Shown here piece after piece: positions 7,230-49,489 of a stretch of DNA of 64,000 nt. Position numbers and translations under genes: made by a program. Under the pieces are notes generated by a model, which searched no databases, was not told the DNA's origin, and saw only the letters and a program-made list of their open reading frames with translations. The stretch is from Cryoendolithus antarcticus (taxonomy: Eukaryota > Ascomycota > Dothideomycetes > Cladosporiales > Cladosporiaceae), in assembly GCA_002077065.1 (NCBI GenBank), contig NAJO01000001.1, forward strand, positions 1,674,001 to 1,738,000, written 5' to 3'. Each line of letters opens with the position of its first letter. Position 1 is the first letter of the stretch.

Positions 7230-8333
7230 ATGCCGGCCACTCTAAAGGACTTCGAAGCGGTCTTCCCCAAGCTGGTGGAAGACCTAAAGCAACACTGCGA
7301 GCACTACAAACTCCCCACACAAGCGCTGGATTGGTTCGAGAAGGTACCGCACCCATTGCCTGCTCTGTCCAGTCAGTCTCGTCAGCCATTGACTCACTAC
7401 CAGCCCTAGTCCCTCCAACACAATACCCTCGGCGGAAAATGCAACCGCGGCCTCTCCGTAATCGACACCGCCCAAATCCTGCTCGGCCGTGATCTCACTT
7501 CGGACGAGTACTTCCACGCCGCAACACTAGGCTGGATGATCGAGCTCCTGCAAGCCTTCTTCCTCGTCTCAGACGACATAATGGACTCCTCCAAAACCCG
7601 CCGCGGCCAACCCTGCTGGTACCTCGCCCCGAACGTCGGCATGATCGCCATAAACGACGCTTTCATGCTCGAGAGCTCGATCTACGTGCTGCTGAAGAAG
7701 TACTTCAAGAGCCACGCCGCGTACGTGGAGCTCATGGAGCTGTTCCACGAGGTGTCTTTCCAGACTGAGCTGGGGCAGACGTGCGATTTGTTGACTGCGC
7801 CGGAGGATCATGTTGACTTGGAGAACTTTAGTTTGGAGAAGTATACGTTTATTGTGATTTACAAGACGGCGTATTACTCGTTCTACTTGCCGGTTGCGTT
7901 GGCGCTGCTATATACGGGCAAGGCTTCGGCGGAGAATCTGAAGCAGGCGGAGGATATTCTGATACCGATGGGGGAGTACTTTCAGGTGCAGGACGATTAT
8001 CTGGATAACTTTGCGGATCCGGAGACGCTGGGGAAAATTGGGACGGATATTCAGGACAATAAGTGCTCGTGGCTGGTCAATCAGGCGTTGAGGAAGTGCA
8101 GTAAAGAGCAGAGGAAGGTGTTGGAGGAGAATTATGGGCGGAAAGACAAGACGTGCGAAGCGAAGGTCAAGAAGCTGTTCGATGAGCTTGAGCTGGAGAA
8201 GGTGTATAAAGAGTATGAGGAGGAGAGGGTCGCGGATTTGCGAAAGAAGATCGCGGCTGTAGACGAGAGCCAGGGCATGAAAAAGGAGGTCTTCGAGGAG
8301 TTCTTGAGGAAGATCTACAAGAGATCGAAGTAG
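7230..8333 (+). CDS. ERG20: Farnesyl diphosphate synthase
   Basis: Exons 7230-7343 and 7410-8333 (66-bp intron GTACCG...CCCTAG, phase 0) give 345 residues, the usual length. The first aspartate-rich motif DDIMD lies at residues 93-97 and the second, DDYLD, at 233-237; RRGQPCWY and FQTELGQ are also present. The two aromatic residues (FF) just before the first motif are the bulky chain-length-limiting pair of eukaryotic FPP synthases, so a C15 product is expected. The enzyme condenses DMAPP/GPP with IPP, feeding sterols, dolichol, ubiquinone and prenylation. Another sterol gene, lanosterol synthase, lies 15.5 kb downstream with unrelated genes between. Confidence 0.97.
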
Positions 8334-23836: not shown

Positions 23837-26385
23837 ATGAGCCTACGCCGTCGTGGCGAGGCGAAGCAAGCTAATGGCTTCGCAAGCGGACGCGCCAATG
23901 GCCTCGCCAATGGTCGTCTACGCGGCCAGCAAGAAGTGTTGAGTCCGACGGATGCGAAGACTGATCATAGTAGATGGCGATTGCGCGATACTAATGGCGT
24001 TCATACGTGGCATTATCTCGAGAGTGATGAGCAGGTCGCGGCATGGCCTCAGTCGGCTGCTGAACTACACTACCTTGGCCAGGATACAGTGAGTGAACAT
24101 CAGGTTGAATCATACTAAATGTGTTACTGACTAAGATAGGGTGCACCACTCCTCCCAAAAGCCACAACACCCCTACAAGCCGCAGAGAATGGCATCGCCT
24201 TCTACGAACGCATGCAACTCCCCACCGGCCACTGGGGCGCCGAGTACGGCGGCCCTATGTTCCTCATGCCCGGCTACGTGATCACCTGCTACGTGACCGA
24301 GTCTCGCTTCTCGCAAGCCGAGGAGACGGAGATGATTCGGTATCTCTTCAGCGTGCAGAATCTCGGAGCCAAGAATGGTGGCGACGGCGGCTGGGGACTG
24401 CATGTTGAAGCTGACTCCTCCGTTTTTGGGACTGCGATGAACTATACGACTTTACGACTGCTTGGAGTACCGGCTGAGGATCCTAGGATGCGGAAGGCGA
24501 GAGGATGCTTGTATGATTTGAATGGTGCGTTGCTTGGGCCGCATTGGGCGAAGTGGTGGTTGAGTGTTTTGGGAGTGATGGAGTGGGATGTGGTCAATCC
24601 TGTGCCGCCGGAGCTGTGGTTACTGCCGGATTGGGTGCCTATCGCTCCGTATCGATGGTGGTACGTAGAGAAGGCCGTCCTTCAGTTGCCACTGCAACGG
24701 CCCGCTTTCGCTCTCCTCCCGTGTGCTGACGACTGCTTTCCCTTCTTGTAGGATACACATGCGTCAAGTGATGCTTCCCATGAGCTACATCTGGTCGAAG
24801 CAGTGGGTATACCGCAAGGCCGACTCTGATCCTCTGATCCGCCAGCTTAGGCAAGAGCTCTTCACGCAATCACACGACGAGATCAAGTGGGCGAGGTATC
24901 AGAATGCGATCAGTCCAGCTGACAACTATCACCCGAAGACACACCTACTAGACCTGCTCAATTTGATTTTGGTACTGATCTGGATCCCTTTTCTACGCAC
25001 TGCAACTATCGTTCGCAAAGCCGAGGCATTCGCATGGCGACTTATACAGATCGAGGACGCTAACACAGATCATGGATGCTTAGCGACTGTCAATGCACCG
25101 ATGAATACGCTTGCCTGCTTTATCGCAGAAGGGCCAGACTCTTATTCATTCAAGCGCCACCGTCAGAAGCTCCACGAGGGTATGTGGATGACTGGCCGAG
25201 GAATGCTTGTTTGCGGTACGGACGGACTGCAGACCTGGGACACATCGTTCTCGATACAGTCGCTGACTGGCTCTGGACTGGCACACGAGCCGAAGTACAG
25301 ACCTATGTTACTCAATGCGCTCAAGTTCCTAGAGACGCAACAATTTACAGAGCACTGCGTGGGCTACGAGACGTCATCGCTGTACTCCGATCCGCCAACT
25401 GCGAAAGTAAATGCTCAATTCGGGTACAGGCAACCACGAAAAGGCGGCTGGGGCTTCAGTGGTAAGGGCCAAGGCTACATAGTCTCTGACTGTGTCTCTG
25501 AAGCCCTTAAATCCGTTCTACTTCTCCAGACCACGACCAATCCCGATGACCCTTCAAAAAGGATCTTCCCAGAAGTCATGTCCTTTGAGCGTCTCCGCTG
25601 GGCCGTTGACATTATCCTCTCCATGCAAAACGAAACAGGCGGTATCGCATCCTACGAGGCCCGCCGCGGCAGCACGAAGCTCGAAGTTCTCAACGCTGCA
25701 GAAGTCTTTGGGCGTATAATGGTCGAGTATGACTATCCCGAATGTACCACCTCCTGCGTGACAGCTGTCCAGCTATTCCGCCAAGTCTATCCGGACTATC
25801 GCGCAGAAGCCATTGAGTCGTTCATGACGCGTGCTGTGGATTGGATTCGCAAAGACCAACGAGATGACGGCTCCTGGTACGGCAGCTGGGGTATCTGCTT
25901 CACCTACGCTGGTTTCTTCGCACTGGAGTCTCTGGCTACACAGGGCGAGACGTATGAGAACAGCGAGCGAGTGCAGCGGGCTTGTAAATTCTTTCTCGAT
26001 CGGCAGAACGCTGATGGCGGGTGGGGTGAGAGCTACAAGAGTTGTGAGACGGGGAGGTGGTGCGATCATCCTGATGGGAGTCAGGTCGTGCAGACTGCTT
26101 GGGTCGTTTGCGCGATGCTCGAGGCGAAGTTCCCGCAGCGGGAGCCGCTGGAGAGGGCGGTGAGGTTGATGATGGAGAGGCAGCAGGAGAATGGGGAGTG
26201 GTTGCAGGAGGGGATTGAGGGGGTGTTCAACAAGAGTTGGTAAGTCGGGAACTGGTATTGATCGCTTGATGAATACACGCTGACCTCTCTACAGCATGAT
26301 CTCTTTTCCGAATTACAAGTTCATCTTCCCGATCAAAGCGCTTGGTATGTACGCCAAGCAACGTGGCAGCGACATTTCTACATAG
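23837..26385 (+). CDS. ERG7: Lanosterol synthase (oxidosqualene cyclase)
   Basis: Four exons, 23837-24088, 24140-24660, 24752-26239 and 26295-26385, join in frame and give 783 residues. The catalytic Asp lies in SDCVSEALK (about residue 504), equivalent to the DCTAE motif. Here the Thr-Ala pair is Val-Ser; the Asp, Cys and Glu are kept. QW-type repeats are visible, including [45 protein letters not shown] and NGEWLQEG. The enzyme cyclises 2,3-oxidosqualene to lanosterol on ER/lipid-droplet membranes. The N-terminal ~35 residues are a Gly/Ala/Asn-rich tail. The last exon supplies [18 protein letters not shown] and the stop. Confidence 0.96.
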
Positions 26386-26922
26386 TCATGCACAAGCAGG
26401 CAAACTTGCAGGATGACAATTCTTGTTAACCTTGCCTACTCAACTACACGAGGCTCTCATACAACATACGCCTGCGTCAGCACTTCCATCAGGATGCGGG
26501 GTACCGCAGACAGACCCTTTCCACGACCAGCCCAACCTCTTGATCGATGGGGCCAGGTCGGGCATTGATGGGACTGATCCGCGAGGGCTATTGACCGCCA
26601 CGCACTGATGGCGTGTTGCGTCCGTGAAGCATGGTTTAGCTCATTTCTTCGGCGCAGCTTCCTTCACGTCTCGCTTTTGCTGCTCATCTCGGCCGGCGCG
26701 TCTTCCATAAATCTTCTCGAGAGATTGGGCAGTGATCTCGTTCTCTGCCATCTGGTCCACTGCCCATTGCAACGAGTCAGTATCAGACTCTCCCTCTTCA
26801 GAATCAGACTCCCCCAGTTCTGGATCAGACTCTCGCTCTTCAGTACCAGACTGCCTTTCTTCAGTATCACACCGTTCCTCTTCAGTATCAGACTGTCCCT
26901 CGTCAGTGTCAGACTGTCCCTC
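26386..26922. other. Convergent region with minisatellite, otherwise no gene
   Basis: Between the ERG7 stop and the end of the ankyrin frame. The only structure seen is the 21-bp repeat array starting at 26777. Confidence 0.45.
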
Positions 26923-26944
26923 TTAAGTGCCAAACACTCTTCTT
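26777..26944. repeat. 21-bp minisatellite, seven to eight units
   Basis: Units begin at 26777, 26798, 26819, 26840, 26861, 26882, 26903 and (weakly) 26924, with consensus tcagtatcagactgtccctct. Being a multiple of three, the array is open in frames on both strands. On the minus strand it would encode a seven-residue repeat like DSLILKR. It runs into the end of the ankyrin frame of the NLR pseudogene. Confidence 0.85.
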
Positions 26945-29388
26945 CCGGCCGCAATGCGCCTCTTCGGATCTTGGGCAAGCTCATATCTGGCTTTCCCAAG
27001 GTCATGCTGCATGGCTGCAGCTCTGACATGCCGCCACCTTTCACCGAGTGTGTCGGGTTCAGAATCGTCAGCAGCTAACATGGAACCAGCCAGTGAGCGA
27101 TTCAGATAGGCGGCCTGCTCAAATGCAGTATATCCATCATCATGCTCCGGATTTTCCAATGGAAAATGAAACAACCGTACAGAATCCCCTGCTATGTACA
27201 CCGTCTTCACGTCATCTATTGGGATCATAGAATGGTCCCAGTTGCTTCTGGCATTGATGTCAGCCCCATGCGCAAGCAGAACCGCCATGGTGTATTTATC
27301 ATTGGAGCCGATAGCGCGATGGAGCGGGGTCTGTCCATGTGTTGAATTACGAGCGTTGGGATCTGCACCATGCTCTAGCAGTATGCGTACGATCTCAGGA
27401 AGACCTGATGCTGCTACGTCCAAGATGATAGTATCGTGATTGGCGTCGGCACCACATTCCAGCAAATGCGTAAGCACCTCCGCATGCCCTCGTCGGGCGG
27501 CAAGTTTCATGGCCTTGGGCAGGTAAGCGTTTAGATCATACTTGTACTTTCACTGTATGTGGGCGCCAGCGGGTTGTCAACCACCGTGTACACGGCATGC
27601 TGCCGGCATCCCCGGCCGTGAGTAACGACTTCATACCCTCACGGAGGGTAAACATGTCAGTGGGTCCAGCACGCTTCGCGGTCCACAGCAGCCGGCGTAC
27701 GTATGCTGCAGACGGCCGTACGCTGAAAAAACTCAGCTTAGCGACAACGGTAGATGCAAACTCACGGGCTTCCTTAAGGTGCCACATCCAGTTCCGCCGA
27801 TGGTAACCCTAGTCGCTTGCTGCTGGACAAGTGTTGTTCTTACAGAACGAGAACGCCAGACGTCTGGCAGCCAATCTGTGGTGGCACCGAAGTGACAGAG
27901 CGAGTATGCAGTCCTCCGCGAGCTGTGCATGTATCTCTCCAATCTGTTGTGCATCGCTCAGCGTCCCCTGACGAGCATGTTTGGCGGGATCGAAGAAATA
28001 AATTCTCACGGAGTCGTGAACGAGCGCCACCTGCATAGCCGCACCATAGCGAGCCACAGGTTGCTTTAACGGTTGTTGACCATTGCTTTCTTCCAGATAC
28101 TCCATGGTATCTGTGTCGGGTGGTTGCAGTCGCAGGAAGGATTCGCACAGCGAAATACAGTCGCATGTCAATTCCACCTGCTCTTCGACGGATGTTGTAC
28201 TGAGGTGAAGCAGAAATGCCTACTCGCGGACATAAAGGGGTCGCTTCGCGGAAGCCACCCACTGCAACACCCGTCTCACATCGTGTCTATGCGCGACGTC
28301 GATATCGTCCAGTATCCGCTGGAAAAGCCCGAAAAGACCTTGGGGCAGAGTGTGCAGAGTCTTCTTAATTTAATGAACGTCTTCTTTCCTGAGCACGCGG
28401 CCGCCACAAAGCCAATCCACAAGACGGCATCTTGTGCACGCTCAGCTAGATAAGTCTCGAGAGCAATTTCGTGGTCCTGATCTGGCGGGCAATTGTACGT
28501 GATTACTGTGACCACCGCCTCGGCTACACTAAGGGTGTACAGTCTCACGTCCGCAGTGATGGCGGCTGCCGCTGCACCATCCAGGTCAATGTATGCAGCA
28601 TCTCGCAGATCTATCACTGGTCTACTCAAGACCACTGCACGCAATGGGGCCGACGTACTGTCAGTCGATGAGCTCACAAGCTTTCCAGCAACCCATGCTT
28701 GATCACCCGCAACGCACCCATCAAGACCATCGACGACGCAGTAGACCTCTCGGTCCTGCGGCAAGGTACGCAACAGCTTGACTAATATTGCCCACATGCT
28801 TTCCGGCTCACGAACAATTTGCTTGCTCCGAGCTGCAGAGACCATGGATGCGTTGAGACCAGTCAAGAGATCCGGCTTGGCAACGCAGCTAACCAGTTGC
28901 CACAGCATTGCACGCAACATCGTAGCTGCGTTATCACGTTGCGGATCGCCGGCTGCGAAGACATGATATAACACGACAGCGTTTCTTTTTGCAGCTATTT
29001 TGTGAGTCAGAAAGATAGACAGCATCGTCTTGCCTTTGCCGAGACTACCGCGAACATAGAGTAACCCCGGTGGTCCATCTCGCCACGACTGATACGCGGA
29101 ATCGTCTCGGATCCAGGAGCATGTACCTTCAGTTATGGTGCCCTTGAGTCGCTCCAGCTTGACGCGGTCTATGGATGGGTCGGTGATAAAGATGATGTCT
29201 AGCAGATCCCTGCTGGTGTCCGCAGATGGGGCCAGGAAGTTCTGCGTATGAGCGACGTATTGCTTATTGTGCGTGCCATCGCTGATCGTCGCGTTCGTTT
29301 GTTGACCAGCGCCATTGTTGTGATTGAAAGGACCGATCCCAGTCGTCAAGCCAGAGAGTTCAGACGTCAGGTCCTCTATTTCCAACAT
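26923..29388 (-). pseudogene. Decayed NLR: amyloid-type motif + NACHT + ankyrin repeats
   Basis: Frame A (29388 to about 28395) is intact. It has a Gly/Gln/Asn-rich motif at residues 24-54 and a NACHT NTPase with Walker A GSLGKGKT (114-121) and a Walker B-like strand, VYCVVDGLDG. Homology then continues in a second frame: LHTLPQGLFGLFQRILDDID, LVHDSVRIYFFDP, then HLKEAREFAS. That frame is cut by TAA at 28370-28372, TAG at 28220-28222 and TAG at 27809-27811. A further frame change leads to four or five ankyrin-type repeats (27510-26923, e.g. LLEHGADPNARN and GQTPLHRAIG). Skipping all of these with introns would remove conserved coding sequence, so decay is the simpler reading. It diverges from the SesA gene. 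Confidence 0.8.
29227..29319 (-). other. Amyloid-signalling-type motif, N-terminus of the NLR
   Basis: Encodes residues 24-54, including GAGQQTNATISDGTHNKQYV. It aligns without gaps to the C-terminal motif of the neighbouring SesA protein, with 16 of 31 residues identical. Confidence 0.75.
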
Positions 29389-29676
29389 CTTGGACTTGGA
29401 TTATCTCCAGCACGAGGCCGACATTTCTTGGTCCCTAATGAACCAGATACATTCCGACAACTTACTGGTCAGTGAAGCTTCGTGAAGCTGCGACATGGTA
29501 GAAGGTGAGAAGGTGAGCCGGAAAGCTAGCCATAGCAGCATCTTACCGTTGTACTTAGTCCCGGCGACCTGCTTTTTCGCTGCGTCTGGCTGCATCTCGG
29601 AGGTGTGGCCCATTTCCTTTGCCAGGACTGAAACACTGGCCCTCAACCTCTTTTACTGATTACCTTCCCCTCCACG
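29389..29676. promoter_or_regulatory. Shared divergent promoter of the NLR and SesA genes
   Basis: 288 bp separate the two outward start codons. A minus-strand reading beginning near 29616 could add short upstream exons to the NLR (GTAAGATG and GTAAGTTG donors are present), but the protein made would be unremarkable. No TATA box was seen. Confidence 0.4.
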
Positions 29677-30426
29677 ATGTCCGGCGGAGAAGTCATCGTC
29701 GTTTTAGGCGTCATCGCATCCGTTATCTCGATTCTGGACGGAGCCAAACAAATCATCGACGCTGCCCAAGACGTGAAGGGACTTCACGAAGCCTTCCGCA
29801 AGGTCGCTGAGAATATACCGCTGGTGCTCTGTACGCTCAAGAAAGTGCAGCAGGTATTGAGGATGGCCTCCATGAATTCACCCGACACCGCACACAAAAT
29901 GGACATCGATCACTCTGCAAAAGAGGTCAGGCCAGTCTTCGAGAGCTGCCAGACCAACGCAAACGCACTATACGAGATCTTTAAGGAAGTCGTGCCCGCC
30001 GACGAGGATTCCAGACTGGAGCGGTATAAAAAGGTGCTCAGTACAGTCGCGCCCGGGAAGAAGCGGAAGGTAGAGGATTTAATGAAGGAGACCTTGGAGA
30101 AATTGCAACTCCTACACCTGAACCACTTCTTTGAGACTGCAGTCAGCGACATGGGTTTGGTAAACGCAATCAAGGAGCTCGACGCAGTCGAATCATCTCT
30201 ACCAGATGACGAAGAGGGGAAGTATGTCAATACTGGGTCCGGTCCGCAGAACATCCACGAAGGATCGGGAGAGCAGTATAACAACACGATCAGCGGAGGG
30301 GAGAGGAATGTCCAATATGTCGCGAAGCATCAGACCTTCGGCGGACCGCCCAGCGAAACGGAAGGACAGACAGGGATGGACGCGCATCAAGGCGCCCGAA
30401 GTAGTGTCACAGGGGGTGGTTGCTAG
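29677..30426 (+). CDS. SesA-domain putative cell-death effector with C-terminal amyloid-type motif
   Basis: A single exon of 249 residues. Residues 1-~130 resemble the SesA domain of fungal NACHT/P-loop proteins: MSGGEVIVVLGVIASVISIL, then DGAKQIIDAA, GLHEAFRKVAENIPLV and later helices. A Glu/Asp-rich linker precedes residues 185-224, a Gly/Ser/Gln/Asn stretch containing NTGSGPQNI and GSGEQYNNTISGGERNVQYV. This matches the N-terminus of the divergent NLR. In known systems (HET-S/NWD2, SesA/SesB sigma) such a motif lets the NLR template an amyloid fold in the effector, whose N-terminal domain then triggers death. That role is inferred here from domain order and gene position only. Confidence 0.85.
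   Translation: MSGGEVIVVLGVIASVISILDGAKQIIDAAQDVKGLHEAFRKVAENIPLVLCTLKKVQQVLRMASMNSPDTAHKMDIDHSAKEVRPVFESCQTNANALYEIFKEVVPADEDSRLERYKKVLSTVAPGKKRKVEDLMKETLEKLQLLHLNHFFETAVSDMGLVNAIKELDAVESSLPDDEEGKYVNTGSGPQNIHEGSGEQYNNTISGGERNVQYVAKHQTFGGPPSETEGQTGMDAHQGARSSVTGGGC
30256..30348 (+). other. Amyloid-signalling-type motif, C-terminus of the SesA protein
   Basis: Encodes residues 194-224. It shares G-x-G-x-Q-x-N-x-TIS-x-G-x-x-N-x-QYVA-x-x-Q-x-F with the NLR motif at 29227-29319. Confidence 0.75.
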
Positions 30427-34768: not shown

Positions 34769-35697
34769 TCAGGCCACTTCGATGCTACCTTCCGGCACGC
34801 CTTTCGTACTTTTCAACCTGCGGGCGAGGAATTGCATAATCGGCATCATCTCGTCCCGATTGCTCGGCATGCGATCGCCAGATCTGCGGTATCGCTTAAT
34901 CTCGATGTGTTCGAAGTTGCGCTTTAGCTTCTCCTCGGCGGTAGAAGTAATTGCTGACGCACTTGAGCCACCGCATACTATTACAGGAGTCTTGCACTTG
35001 GATATGAGAGCAGCTGGTGCTTCACTGGGCAATGGACCGCCGACGCTGATAATACCGCCCAGCTCTCTCGGTGTTGTGTCATTTGACAACTGGTGTAGCG
35101 CGACTGTACATGTGTCAGCGTAAGTAGTCCAGAAAGCGGCGTGTGAGATAGACTGACTTGCTGTGCTGAGCGCACACATCCCGCCTTGTCCATAGCCCAG
35201 CAAGGTGACCTCACGGTGAGCGTAGCCGCATTTCTCGACTAACATATCATTGATCAAGACTTTGATCAGCTCGGTAGACTCACGAAGCCCAGCGTCGGCA
35301 TCCAGACCTCCATTCGACGAGTCGAAGATGATGTCGTCGCCCCAGTGAGCACCCTCGAGATCTAACAAAGCTTTAGGTCCTCGGATTGCGATGCATACTG
35401 TCTCGGGCAGGTTCATCTGCTTGCCAAGATTGGCGAAGGACTCGTGCCCGTCTCCCAGGCCATGGAGCAAGACGAGTACATTGGTGGGTCTGTCGATATT
35501 AGGTGCTACATGCAGGCTTGGTCAATCCCGTTGTCTCTGATACAGCAGCAAGCGATATCGAGAGTCTCGGATCGTGGCCACTAGCACATGTTCTAGACGC
35601 GTGGAGAAGCCGATGTGGCTGAGCAAAACTTACGTGGTAAAATTGCTAGCTTGACTGTGCTCGGGAAGTCCGCAGGGATTGGTAGACGTCCGGGCAT
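34769..35697 (-). CDS. Acyl-protein-thioesterase-like (phospholipase/carboxylesterase) protein lacking Ser and His
   Basis: Exons 35697-35634, 35505-35158 and 35103-34769 give 248 residues. Intron 1 runs 35633-35506 (128 bp). Intron 2 is 54 bp (GTCAGT...CGCTGAC...TACAG) and in frame, so an unspliced reading would also stay open. VLVLLHGLGDGHESFANLGK and VCIAIRGPKALLDLEGAHWGDD match the APT/LYPLA fold. The nucleophile elbow GxSxGG reads GYGQGG, with Gly127 at the Ser position. The C-terminal GH is replaced by RSGDRMPSNRDEM. I recall related fungal proteins with GFGQGG, so this may be a conserved non-catalytic subfamily rather than decay. It converges with the MBL-like gene. Confidence 0.82.
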
Positions 35698-49122: not shown

Positions 49123-49489
49123 GATGGGCGGTGGTTATCGCAATGAAATTCTGGGTCGATGTATGCTTCGCCGTGCCATTGATCAATGCCTATAGAACGT
49201 CACATCGACAGTAAATCTTACAGTCCTGCTCGTGCGCGGAATACGCATGCCTCGGTCTCCCTTCACATGCATCTTCTGGCGTCTTTGCGAACCCTGGTCC
49301 GCCGAGATGAAATGCTCCGCCGGGGTGCATGACGCCACGTTACGCGTGGCTCGGGAGGGAACCCTAAAGACTCTTAAATCGACAACCCCGGACGCCACAT
49401 GGACGCGCTTGCAACGCGACTGACATTGATGTGCAGGACACTATCCACACCACGCTAGCTAGATTACTGAGAAGGATGCGGCGATCGGT
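49123..49489. promoter_or_regulatory. Divergent promoter of the KTR and GCP5-like genes
   Basis: 367 bp between outward starts. No specific motif seen. Confidence 0.35.

Follow-up and report, generated by a model that had tools for sequence, protein, structure and literature searches.

A probable amyloid-type SesA/NLR gene pair with a divergent sigma-like tag and a seemingly interrupted receptor gene in Cryoendolithus antarcticus

What kind of system is encoded where a fungal genome places a NOD-like receptor (NLR) gene back to back with a gene for a SesA effector, and is that system still whole? The question is raised by a locus of Cryoendolithus antarcticus that lies within a window of 64,000 nucleotides (G000:C1:1674001-1738000), the whole stretch of DNA analysed here, in an assembly of 46.97 Mb and 149 contigs. 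This is most likely the genome published as Rachicladosporium antarcticum CCFEE 5527 from Illumina MiSeq data with MaSuRCA, although the published contigs number 267, with a total of 47.4 Mb (PMC5502844). An earlier note, made from the letters of the window, had proposed that the two divergent genes form a working amyloid-signalling pair, in which the N-terminus of the NLR and the C-terminus of the effector carry the same short segment, here called the tag. A second copy of the locus lies on contig C62 of the same genome. With good confidence, we read the sequences as an amyloid-signalling locus in which an NLR gene and an effector gene share a divergent, sigma-like tag; its receptor arm has probably been lost and SesA left as an orphan.

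The tag joins the two genes. The earlier note had aligned NLR residues 24-54 with SesA residues 194-224 without gaps at 16 of 31 identical positions and had counted 288 bp between the opposite start codons; both figures are exact, and the alignment is embedded in a longer match that begins earlier (NLR 16-54 and SesA 186-224, 21 of 39 identical). Composition-preserving shuffles of the SesA 31-mer never reached 16 identities (0 of 20,000, maximum 9), nor did shuffled SesA tails in any placement against NLR residues 1-70 (0 of 500, maximum 11), and these shuffles rule out chance or low complexity as the origin of the common segment. A profile of 78 SesA tails from other fungi and metagenomes, with this genome and Oleoguttula excluded, gave exactly two matches at E <= 10 in a six-frame scan of the window, namely the SesA tail (51.0 bits) and the NLR N-terminus (28.8 bits). 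A genome search with the NLR N-terminus at E <= 10 returned two NLR N-termini, two SesA tails and nothing further, and no third NLR with this tag was found elsewhere in the genome by six-frame searches that ignored introns and scored only the best candidates. The effector belongs to the SesA family (PF17107, 104.6 bits, E 5e-30, cut-off 26.3; 112.5 bits in the second copy). Judged by sequence, the same tag at the N-terminus of an NLR and at the C-terminus of the adjoining effector marks an amyloid-type NLR/effector pair, and the proposed type of system, a SesA effector and an NLR in divergent genes with a common terminal tag, is supported by the SesA and NACHT domains, by the tag and by a layout that is repeated in the second copy.

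To which class of motif does the tag belong? The sigma motif has been described as three repeats of the types GxGxQFNxx and GGTQNINT, with the A/B submotif orders AAA, ABA or ABB (PMC3321046). The first two units of the present tag are A-like (GSGPQN and GSGEQY) and the third is merely B-like (SGGERN; SGGMQN in the second-copy NLR), which in our own reading would give the order A-A-B with a divergent B-like third unit. The Pfam profile NACHT_sigma (PF17106) matches the window SesA tail (residues 182-207) with 21.9 bits, the alignment covering positions 3-27 of its 42, and the second-copy SesA with 18.9 bits, both under its cut-off of 27.6; genome-wide, these two tails are its only matches at E <= 10 (E 0.005 and 0.016). 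The NLR N-termini of this genome gave no Pfam row, NACHT_sigma included, at E 10, a threshold at which the HMMER filters drop most matches above ~0.1. Among 49 SesA proteins scanned, the window one included, 16 match NACHT_sigma at E <= 0.1 and none reaches the cut-off, the best value (1.9e-4) being that of the window protein; of the three foreign tagged NLRs scanned with it, P0166 scored 18.1 bits, P0141 scored 9.7 and P0154 gave no row. PP identity of the tags (PF17046, 'Ses_B') was rejected, with no row for SesA at E 1 nor for the NLR N-terminus at E 10; HET-s identity found no support, with no HET-s Pfam row at the thresholds used in libraries that do not include the five HRAM subclass profiles. 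Of the profile matches that the earlier note had proposed to look for, those to Pfam SesA and to a NACHT-type domain (NPHP3_N) were found, that to NACHT_sigma stayed below cut-off and that to PP did not appear; its claim of a likeness to sigma and its guess of a separate subtype are supported. On the sequence evidence the tag is sigma-like, related to the sigma amyloid-signalling motif and not filed as NACHT_sigma.

The tag is shared by many proteins of other fungi and metagenomes. A search with SesA found 91 database proteins at E <= 0.001, query included, in 86 of which the tail region spans 35 residues or more; eight were removed to give the 78 tails of the profile, namely P0001 and P0003 of this genome, P0004 of Oleoguttula, and P0057, P0082, P0085, P0091 and P0092, which were misaligned or without the pattern. 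Each of three loose submotif patterns is matched by 70 to 77 of these 78 tails. The profile was also run against 130 NLR sequences (120 listed of the 201 matches of a search restricted to the 7993 candidates with most shared words, seven new ones from a second search and three pieces of this genome) and matched 29 of them at E < 1e-6, on the scale of a small set, always within the first 60 residues. The tagged sequences comprise 20 of the 120 listed homologues, one being the C62 gene of this genome, all seven from the second search, a biased count because the query of that search was itself a tagged N-terminus, and, as the remaining two, the window NLR and the C62 N-terminal piece; two of the 29 come from one gene, which leaves 28 NLR genes or clusters. 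Regular expressions separate two forms of the tag, NNTISGG in 15, Y.QSG in 66 and neither in 10 of the 91 SesA proteins, and NNTISGG in 23 and Y.QSG in 7 of 129 NLR N-termini; P0207 is an NLR with a match to the NNTISGG expression and none to the profile. In Oleoguttula, LTR95_015219 (NLR) and LTR95_015220 (SesA) have consecutive locus tags and the same longest-contig value of 5810 bases, which indicates linkage, and the NLR model P0096 starts inside the tag and matches the profile at E 0.03. Equal longest-contig values, compared by eye between the SesA and NLR lists, recur only for C62 and Oleoguttula. Orthologues lacking the tag or the linkage, which the earlier note had named as evidence that would speak against a pair, were not what these comparisons brought up, as both features are kept in the second copy and the Oleoguttula locus tags are adjacent.

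The receptor gene is interrupted in both copies. The window NLR starts with an ATG at 29388 on the minus strand and runs for 370 open codons to a TGA at 28276-28278; past the NACHT domain its frame is broken by two changes, the second near 27455-27513, and by several stops, including the two TAG codons of Table 1, and its open product consists of tag and NACHT. By its sequence this NLR is a pseudogene: the NTPase and the repeats of a fungal NACHT/ankyrin NLR are present, in an interrupted gene and not in one open one. In the second copy, an in-frame TAA (L009:4366-4368) leaves the tag on a piece of 98 codons and the NACHT and ankyrin parts on another of 761 codons. The deposited model of that gene, B0A48_00903 (protein P0095), passes the TAA by way of a short in-phase GT-AG stretch and loses the start of NPHP3_N, and in our judgement this stretch is probably an annotation artefact. 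Chance indels are rare in Illumina MiSeq data. The NLR breaks lie at different places in the two copies, and both SesA genes are open. A working pair in the window, as the earlier note had it, is not supported by these interruptions; it had missed both the disruption of the NLR frame and the second syntenic copy. Broken NLRs are not special to this locus, since a stop interrupts 7 of the 36 NPHP3_N matches found genome-wide, among them the C62 copy. What sets the locus apart is that it has a broken NLR in each of its copies beside an open effector, and that the searches brought up no further NLR with the tag. As both NLR copies are interrupted and both SesA genes are open, the receptor arm has probably been lost and SesA orphaned.

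The second copy keeps the order and orientation of the genes, and its SesA is deposited as B0A48_00904. It is part of a larger block, in which window 1-30347 aligns in the same order, with gaps, to C62:387340-419621. DNA identity ranges from 69 to 90% among the ten aligned pieces and is 82-88% in most of them; it is 69% across NLR/SesA, and the ankyrin part is largely unaligned. In tblastn the window ankyrin remnant has 38% identity to the ankyrin part of the second copy. One 797-aa frame of the block has 100% protein identity between the copies as listed. Collinearity with the C62 pieces (C62:384001-452000) stops at window 30347, in the last SesA codons, and the window gene at 49463 has its counterpart on the other C62 strand (C62:70729-73239, 75% protein identity); because this counterpart is distant and on the opposite strand, a rearrangement breakpoint probably lies at the SesA 3' end (window 30347-30426). 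The breakpoint seemingly added ~25 codons to the window copy; the second-copy and Oleoguttula SesA proteins have no extension and end in GGPGH directly past the tag. Duplication of a whole block suggests an old hybrid or genome duplication. We take Rachicladosporium antarcticum and Cryoendolithus antarcticus to be one fungus. For the former, protein counts higher than expected have been described (PMC11412873), the title of a further paper concerns the exclusion of cold-adapted species from Rachicladosporium (PMC10739867), and our literature search found no paper on the Cryoendolithus antarcticus genome and duplication.

Divergence between the copies can be compared part by part through non-synonymous (dN) and synonymous (dS) changes. 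The two SesA tags differ at one of 39 residues, and the SesA tail (residues 182-224, 43 codons) has 11 synonymous and 2 non-synonymous changes (dN 0.020, dS 0.56, dN/dS 0.036). The values are dN 0.158, dS 0.958 and dN/dS 0.165 for the SesA domain, dN 0.245 and dS 1.21 for the SesA linker, dN 0.265, dS 0.81 and dN/dS ~0.33 for the NLR tag, dN 0.42, dS 1.59 and dN/dS ~0.26 for the NACHT part, and dN 0.059 and dS 1.05 for the adjoining cyclase-like gene. Within SesA, constraint is strongest on the tail. The time over which such ratios are averaged probably fell mostly before the NLR breaks, and the ratios are therefore no proof of selection after the loss.

How would such a locus have acted? In the ancestral state, a ligand sensed via the ankyrin repeats would have led the NACHT NLR to oligomerise, the clustered N-terminal tags would have taken up a beta-arch amyloid fold and templated the same fold in the SesA tail, and SesA, a helical bundle with a hydrophobic N-terminal helix, would have disrupted the membrane and killed the cell. 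Oligomerisation, templating and membrane killing are proposed here, with HET-S/NWD2 as the analogy for templating by an oligomerised NLR (PMC9815663). In the current state, the receptor arm would probably be lost or down to tag-bearing fragments, with the SesA proteins orphaned. The most hydrophobic 17-mer of SesA, residues 6-22 (mean Kyte-Doolittle 2.5), points to a hydrophobic N-terminal helix. The best of five AlphaFold2 models has a mean predicted local distance difference test score (pLDDT) of 74.4, the other four lying at 53.5-62.2, and its 10-residue blocks over residues 11-150 have mean pLDDT of 82-94; the SesA domain is predicted to be a helical bundle, with helices at 3-29, 33-67 and 71-105 and shorter ones, and short strands are predicted at 202-205 and 213-216, within the low-confidence tag. 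SesA is described as remotely homologous to the HeLo and HeLo-like domains (PMC5485727), the categories have been merged in annotation (PMC12258605), and the HeLo domain of HET-S goes to the plasma membrane (PMC12881547). A short stretch elsewhere in the genome (G000:C148:13677-13784) has 64% identity to SesA residues 114-149.

Several findings weigh against reading the locus as an amyloid-signalling pair with a lost receptor. The support comes from sequence, and amyloid formation and killing are inferred. NACHT_sigma falls under its cut-off on SesA and is absent on the window NLR. Pair-specific co-evolution of the tags is not supported, as 129 NLR N-termini compared with the window SesA tag do not have the window NLR in their top 15, the window NLR tag puts its own SesA in fifth place among 91, and the C62 NLR tag puts its own in a tie for second. 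Linkage beyond this genome consists of one pair of adjacent locus tags, with an NLR model that starts within the tag. Searches by structure brought up generic helical bundles (designed and unrelated ones best; with Foldseek, 746 matches at E <= 10 and none at E <= 0.001; in a further search, 997 chains aligned), with no HeLo or MLKL row among the best 50 of each search, which is not evidence of absence, and a sequence search of solved structures gave one match, at E 0.19, to the molecule sc-apCC-8.

Other explanations of the locus have to be set against the same evidence. That the shared segment is a common Gly/Asn/Gln-rich stretch without signalling meaning would fit the composition of both segments, which are rich in G, N and Q and poor in charge, and is nevertheless highly improbable: beyond the failure of composition-keeping shuffles to reach 16 of 31, ordered profile matches occur at SesA C-termini and NLR N-termini in dozens of proteins, the SesA tail has collected synonymous changes with almost no amino-acid change, and the profile matches no unrelated G/N/Q-rich protein in the 64 kb window. 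We consider it unlikely that the truncated NLR products, the 370-codon tag and NACHT of the window and the 98 codons from the second copy that span the tag and barely enter the NACHT region, still act on SesA, whether to trigger it, to hold it back or to serve as decoys. In both copies the frame runs uninterrupted from the start codon through the first 98 codons, which take in the tag, and the dN/dS of NLR tag and NACHT are both below 1; however, these ratios average over time preceding the breaks, the Walker B stretch reads DGLDGC in the window and DGLDEC in the second copy and Oleoguttula, as expected of decay, and harm might be expected of a free tag beside an intact SesA. The acidic residue of the Walker B stretch has a functional role.

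About equally improbable is an unbroken second-copy NLR, whose in-frame stop would lie within a 48-nt intron as in the deposited model. That model does omit the residues around the stop, and the stretch allows an in-phase GT...AG reading (48 nt counted by eye), but the omitted residues are the start of NPHP3_N, which is coding in the window copy, P0096, P0141 and P0156 (in a comparison of nine sequences whose pattern missed P0154, P0166, P0170 and P0219, the ninth being the C62 piece itself); the same model also omits a long ankyrin stretch (P0095 vs P0093), and the window copy would still be broken. A further idea builds on the loss of the receptor arm and seems to us a shade more doubtful still: the receptor half may have been disabled separately in both diverged copies, with the tagged effectors left open, as the trace of a hybrid or duplicated fungus escaping NLR-driven self-killing, so that SesA would now be NLR-less and possibly self-propagating in a prion-like manner, its sigma-like tag belonging to a subclass that the literature consulted does not describe.

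What does the locus add? On sequence grounds, the sigma-like SesA/NLR pair is a new variant of a known fungal system with a divergent tag, and no report of a sigma-type pair in Cryoendolithus antarcticus was found in the literature, supplementary lists not being covered. It would bring sigma-type signalling to black fungi, those living in rock included, and to environmental relatives of these fungi; the tag subclass is present on 28 NLR genes or clusters and on most of a set of 81 SesA tails, made up of the 78 profile tails and the three closest. The NNTISGG-like and Y.QSG-like forms, each present on the SesA and the NLR side, offer a ready set for tests of cross-seeding specificity, and loss of the NLR in both copies would make a natural case of an amyloid-tagged effector without its receptor. 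It also prompts one to ask if disarming such pairs is a necessity for genomes that are duplicated or hybrid. Stable hybrids among other black yeasts have been discussed together with their incompatibility loci, and heterokaryon-incompatibility genes have been posed as a question for them (PMC9535773).

The features of the locus are collected in Table 1. At E 1, Pfam gave no separate match for the remnant that lies between the NACHT and the ankyrin part. Directly beyond the ankyrin remnant, at window 26641-26922, one frame contains near-repeats of the EGQSDT/EERQSGT type (by eye), and a squalene-hopene-cyclase-like frame at 24669-26243 (SQHop_cyclase_C, E 1.3e-33) adjoins the NLR remnant and has been retained in the second copy as well; positions 7410-8330 hold a polyprenyl synthetase frame. 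An alpha/beta hydrolase at 34769-35521 on the minus strand was rejected as a SesB partner, as it matches Abhydrolase_2 and its end has no tag by eye.

Table 1. Features of the SesA/NLR locus in window coordinates
Feature	Position	Strand	Remarks
SesA effector gene	29677-30426	+	249 aa, one open exon; from translation
SesA domain, residues 13-146	29713..30114	+	Pfam PF17107; all-helical in the AlphaFold2 model
Sigma-like tag at SesA C-terminus, residues 186-224	30232..30348	+	21/39 identical to NLR tag
SesA C-terminal extension past the tag	30349..30423	+	among the three closest relatives, in the window copy alone
Divergent intergenic region, start codon to start codon	29389..29676		288 bp; 289 bp in the second copy
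Sigma-like tag at NLR N-terminus, residues 16-54	29227..29343	-	35.8 bits with the profile of 78 foreign SesA tails
Open 5' part of the NLR pseudogene	28279..29388	-	tag, NACHT domain, and a tail out of frame past the first frame change
NACHT-type domain NPHP3_N, residues 88-256	28621..29127	-	PF24883, 102.1 bits, E 4.8e-29; place confirmed in the genome-wide NPHP3_N scan
First change of NLR coding frame	28324..28369	-	tblastn with P0093: frame -3 match stops, frame -2 match starts
Remnant of the NACHT-to-ankyrin interval	27809..28222	-	tblastn; in-frame stops TAG 28220-28222 and TAG 27809-27811 at its borders
NLR ankyrin-repeat remnant, again in the first frame	26926..27549	-	Pfam Ank E 6.4e-18, Ank_2 E 3.1e-16

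A second putative amyloid pair lies on contig C87. The profile PF17046, described as misnamed SesB and standing for the PP motif (PMC12261475), matches this genome at E <= 1 on C87 only (C87:176835-176888, over cut-off). The region (G000:C87:171500-181499, L051 827-5416) resembles a HELLP/PNT1 pair, in which a HeLo-like (PF17111) frame is followed by one stop codon and then by a frame that ends in the PP motif; the PP frame is divergent from a tetratricopeptide-repeat (TPR) NLR-like frame, upstream of which a similar PP stretch can be seen by eye. The genome thus seems, from its sequence, to hold two pairs of different amyloid classes.

Among known systems, the closest is the sigma system of Nectria haematococca (sesA, sesB, het-eN), whose s locus holds sesA and a NACHT-ankyrin NLR with a common sigma motif, plus sesB (PMC3321046). 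Both loci have a SesA effector with a C-terminal tag, an adjacent NACHT-ankyrin NLR with an N-terminal tag, and G/N/Q-rich submotifs of the kinds GxGxQFNxx and GGTQN; the present one differs in that no tagged sesB was seen, the NACHT_sigma cut-off is not reached and the NLR is interrupted, and in its order A-A-B by our own reading, with a divergent third submotif, SGGxxNxQYxAxxQxF. The GDQN pair of Fusarium oxysporum Fo5176, described in 2025, joins a probable NLR (KAI8417719) and a SesA-domain protein (KAI8417720) through a non-canonical tag (PMC12261475). It has the same arrangement of NLR N-terminal and SesA C-terminal tag, and its NxxxGxQ....GxGxQ spacing also fits the present SesA tail, whereas the remainder of its signature, GDQNxVSxxxxQxN, does not, in both cases by eye against the printed pattern. 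HET-S/NWD2 (HET-s/HRAM) and the PP-motif pairs have the same layout and proposed templating (PMC9815663), with other effector families and other motifs. Four places in this genome have SesA beside NPHP3_N on the same strand (C116:2950-4004, C128:815174-816445, C13:78686-79665 and C75:319902-320978, with SesA matches at C116:3627, C128:815174, C13:78686 and C75:319902), and by sequence they are likely all-in-one SesA-NACHT NLRs. Such NLRs likewise bring SesA and NACHT into one pathway, which at the present locus would be done by separate genes joined by a tag.

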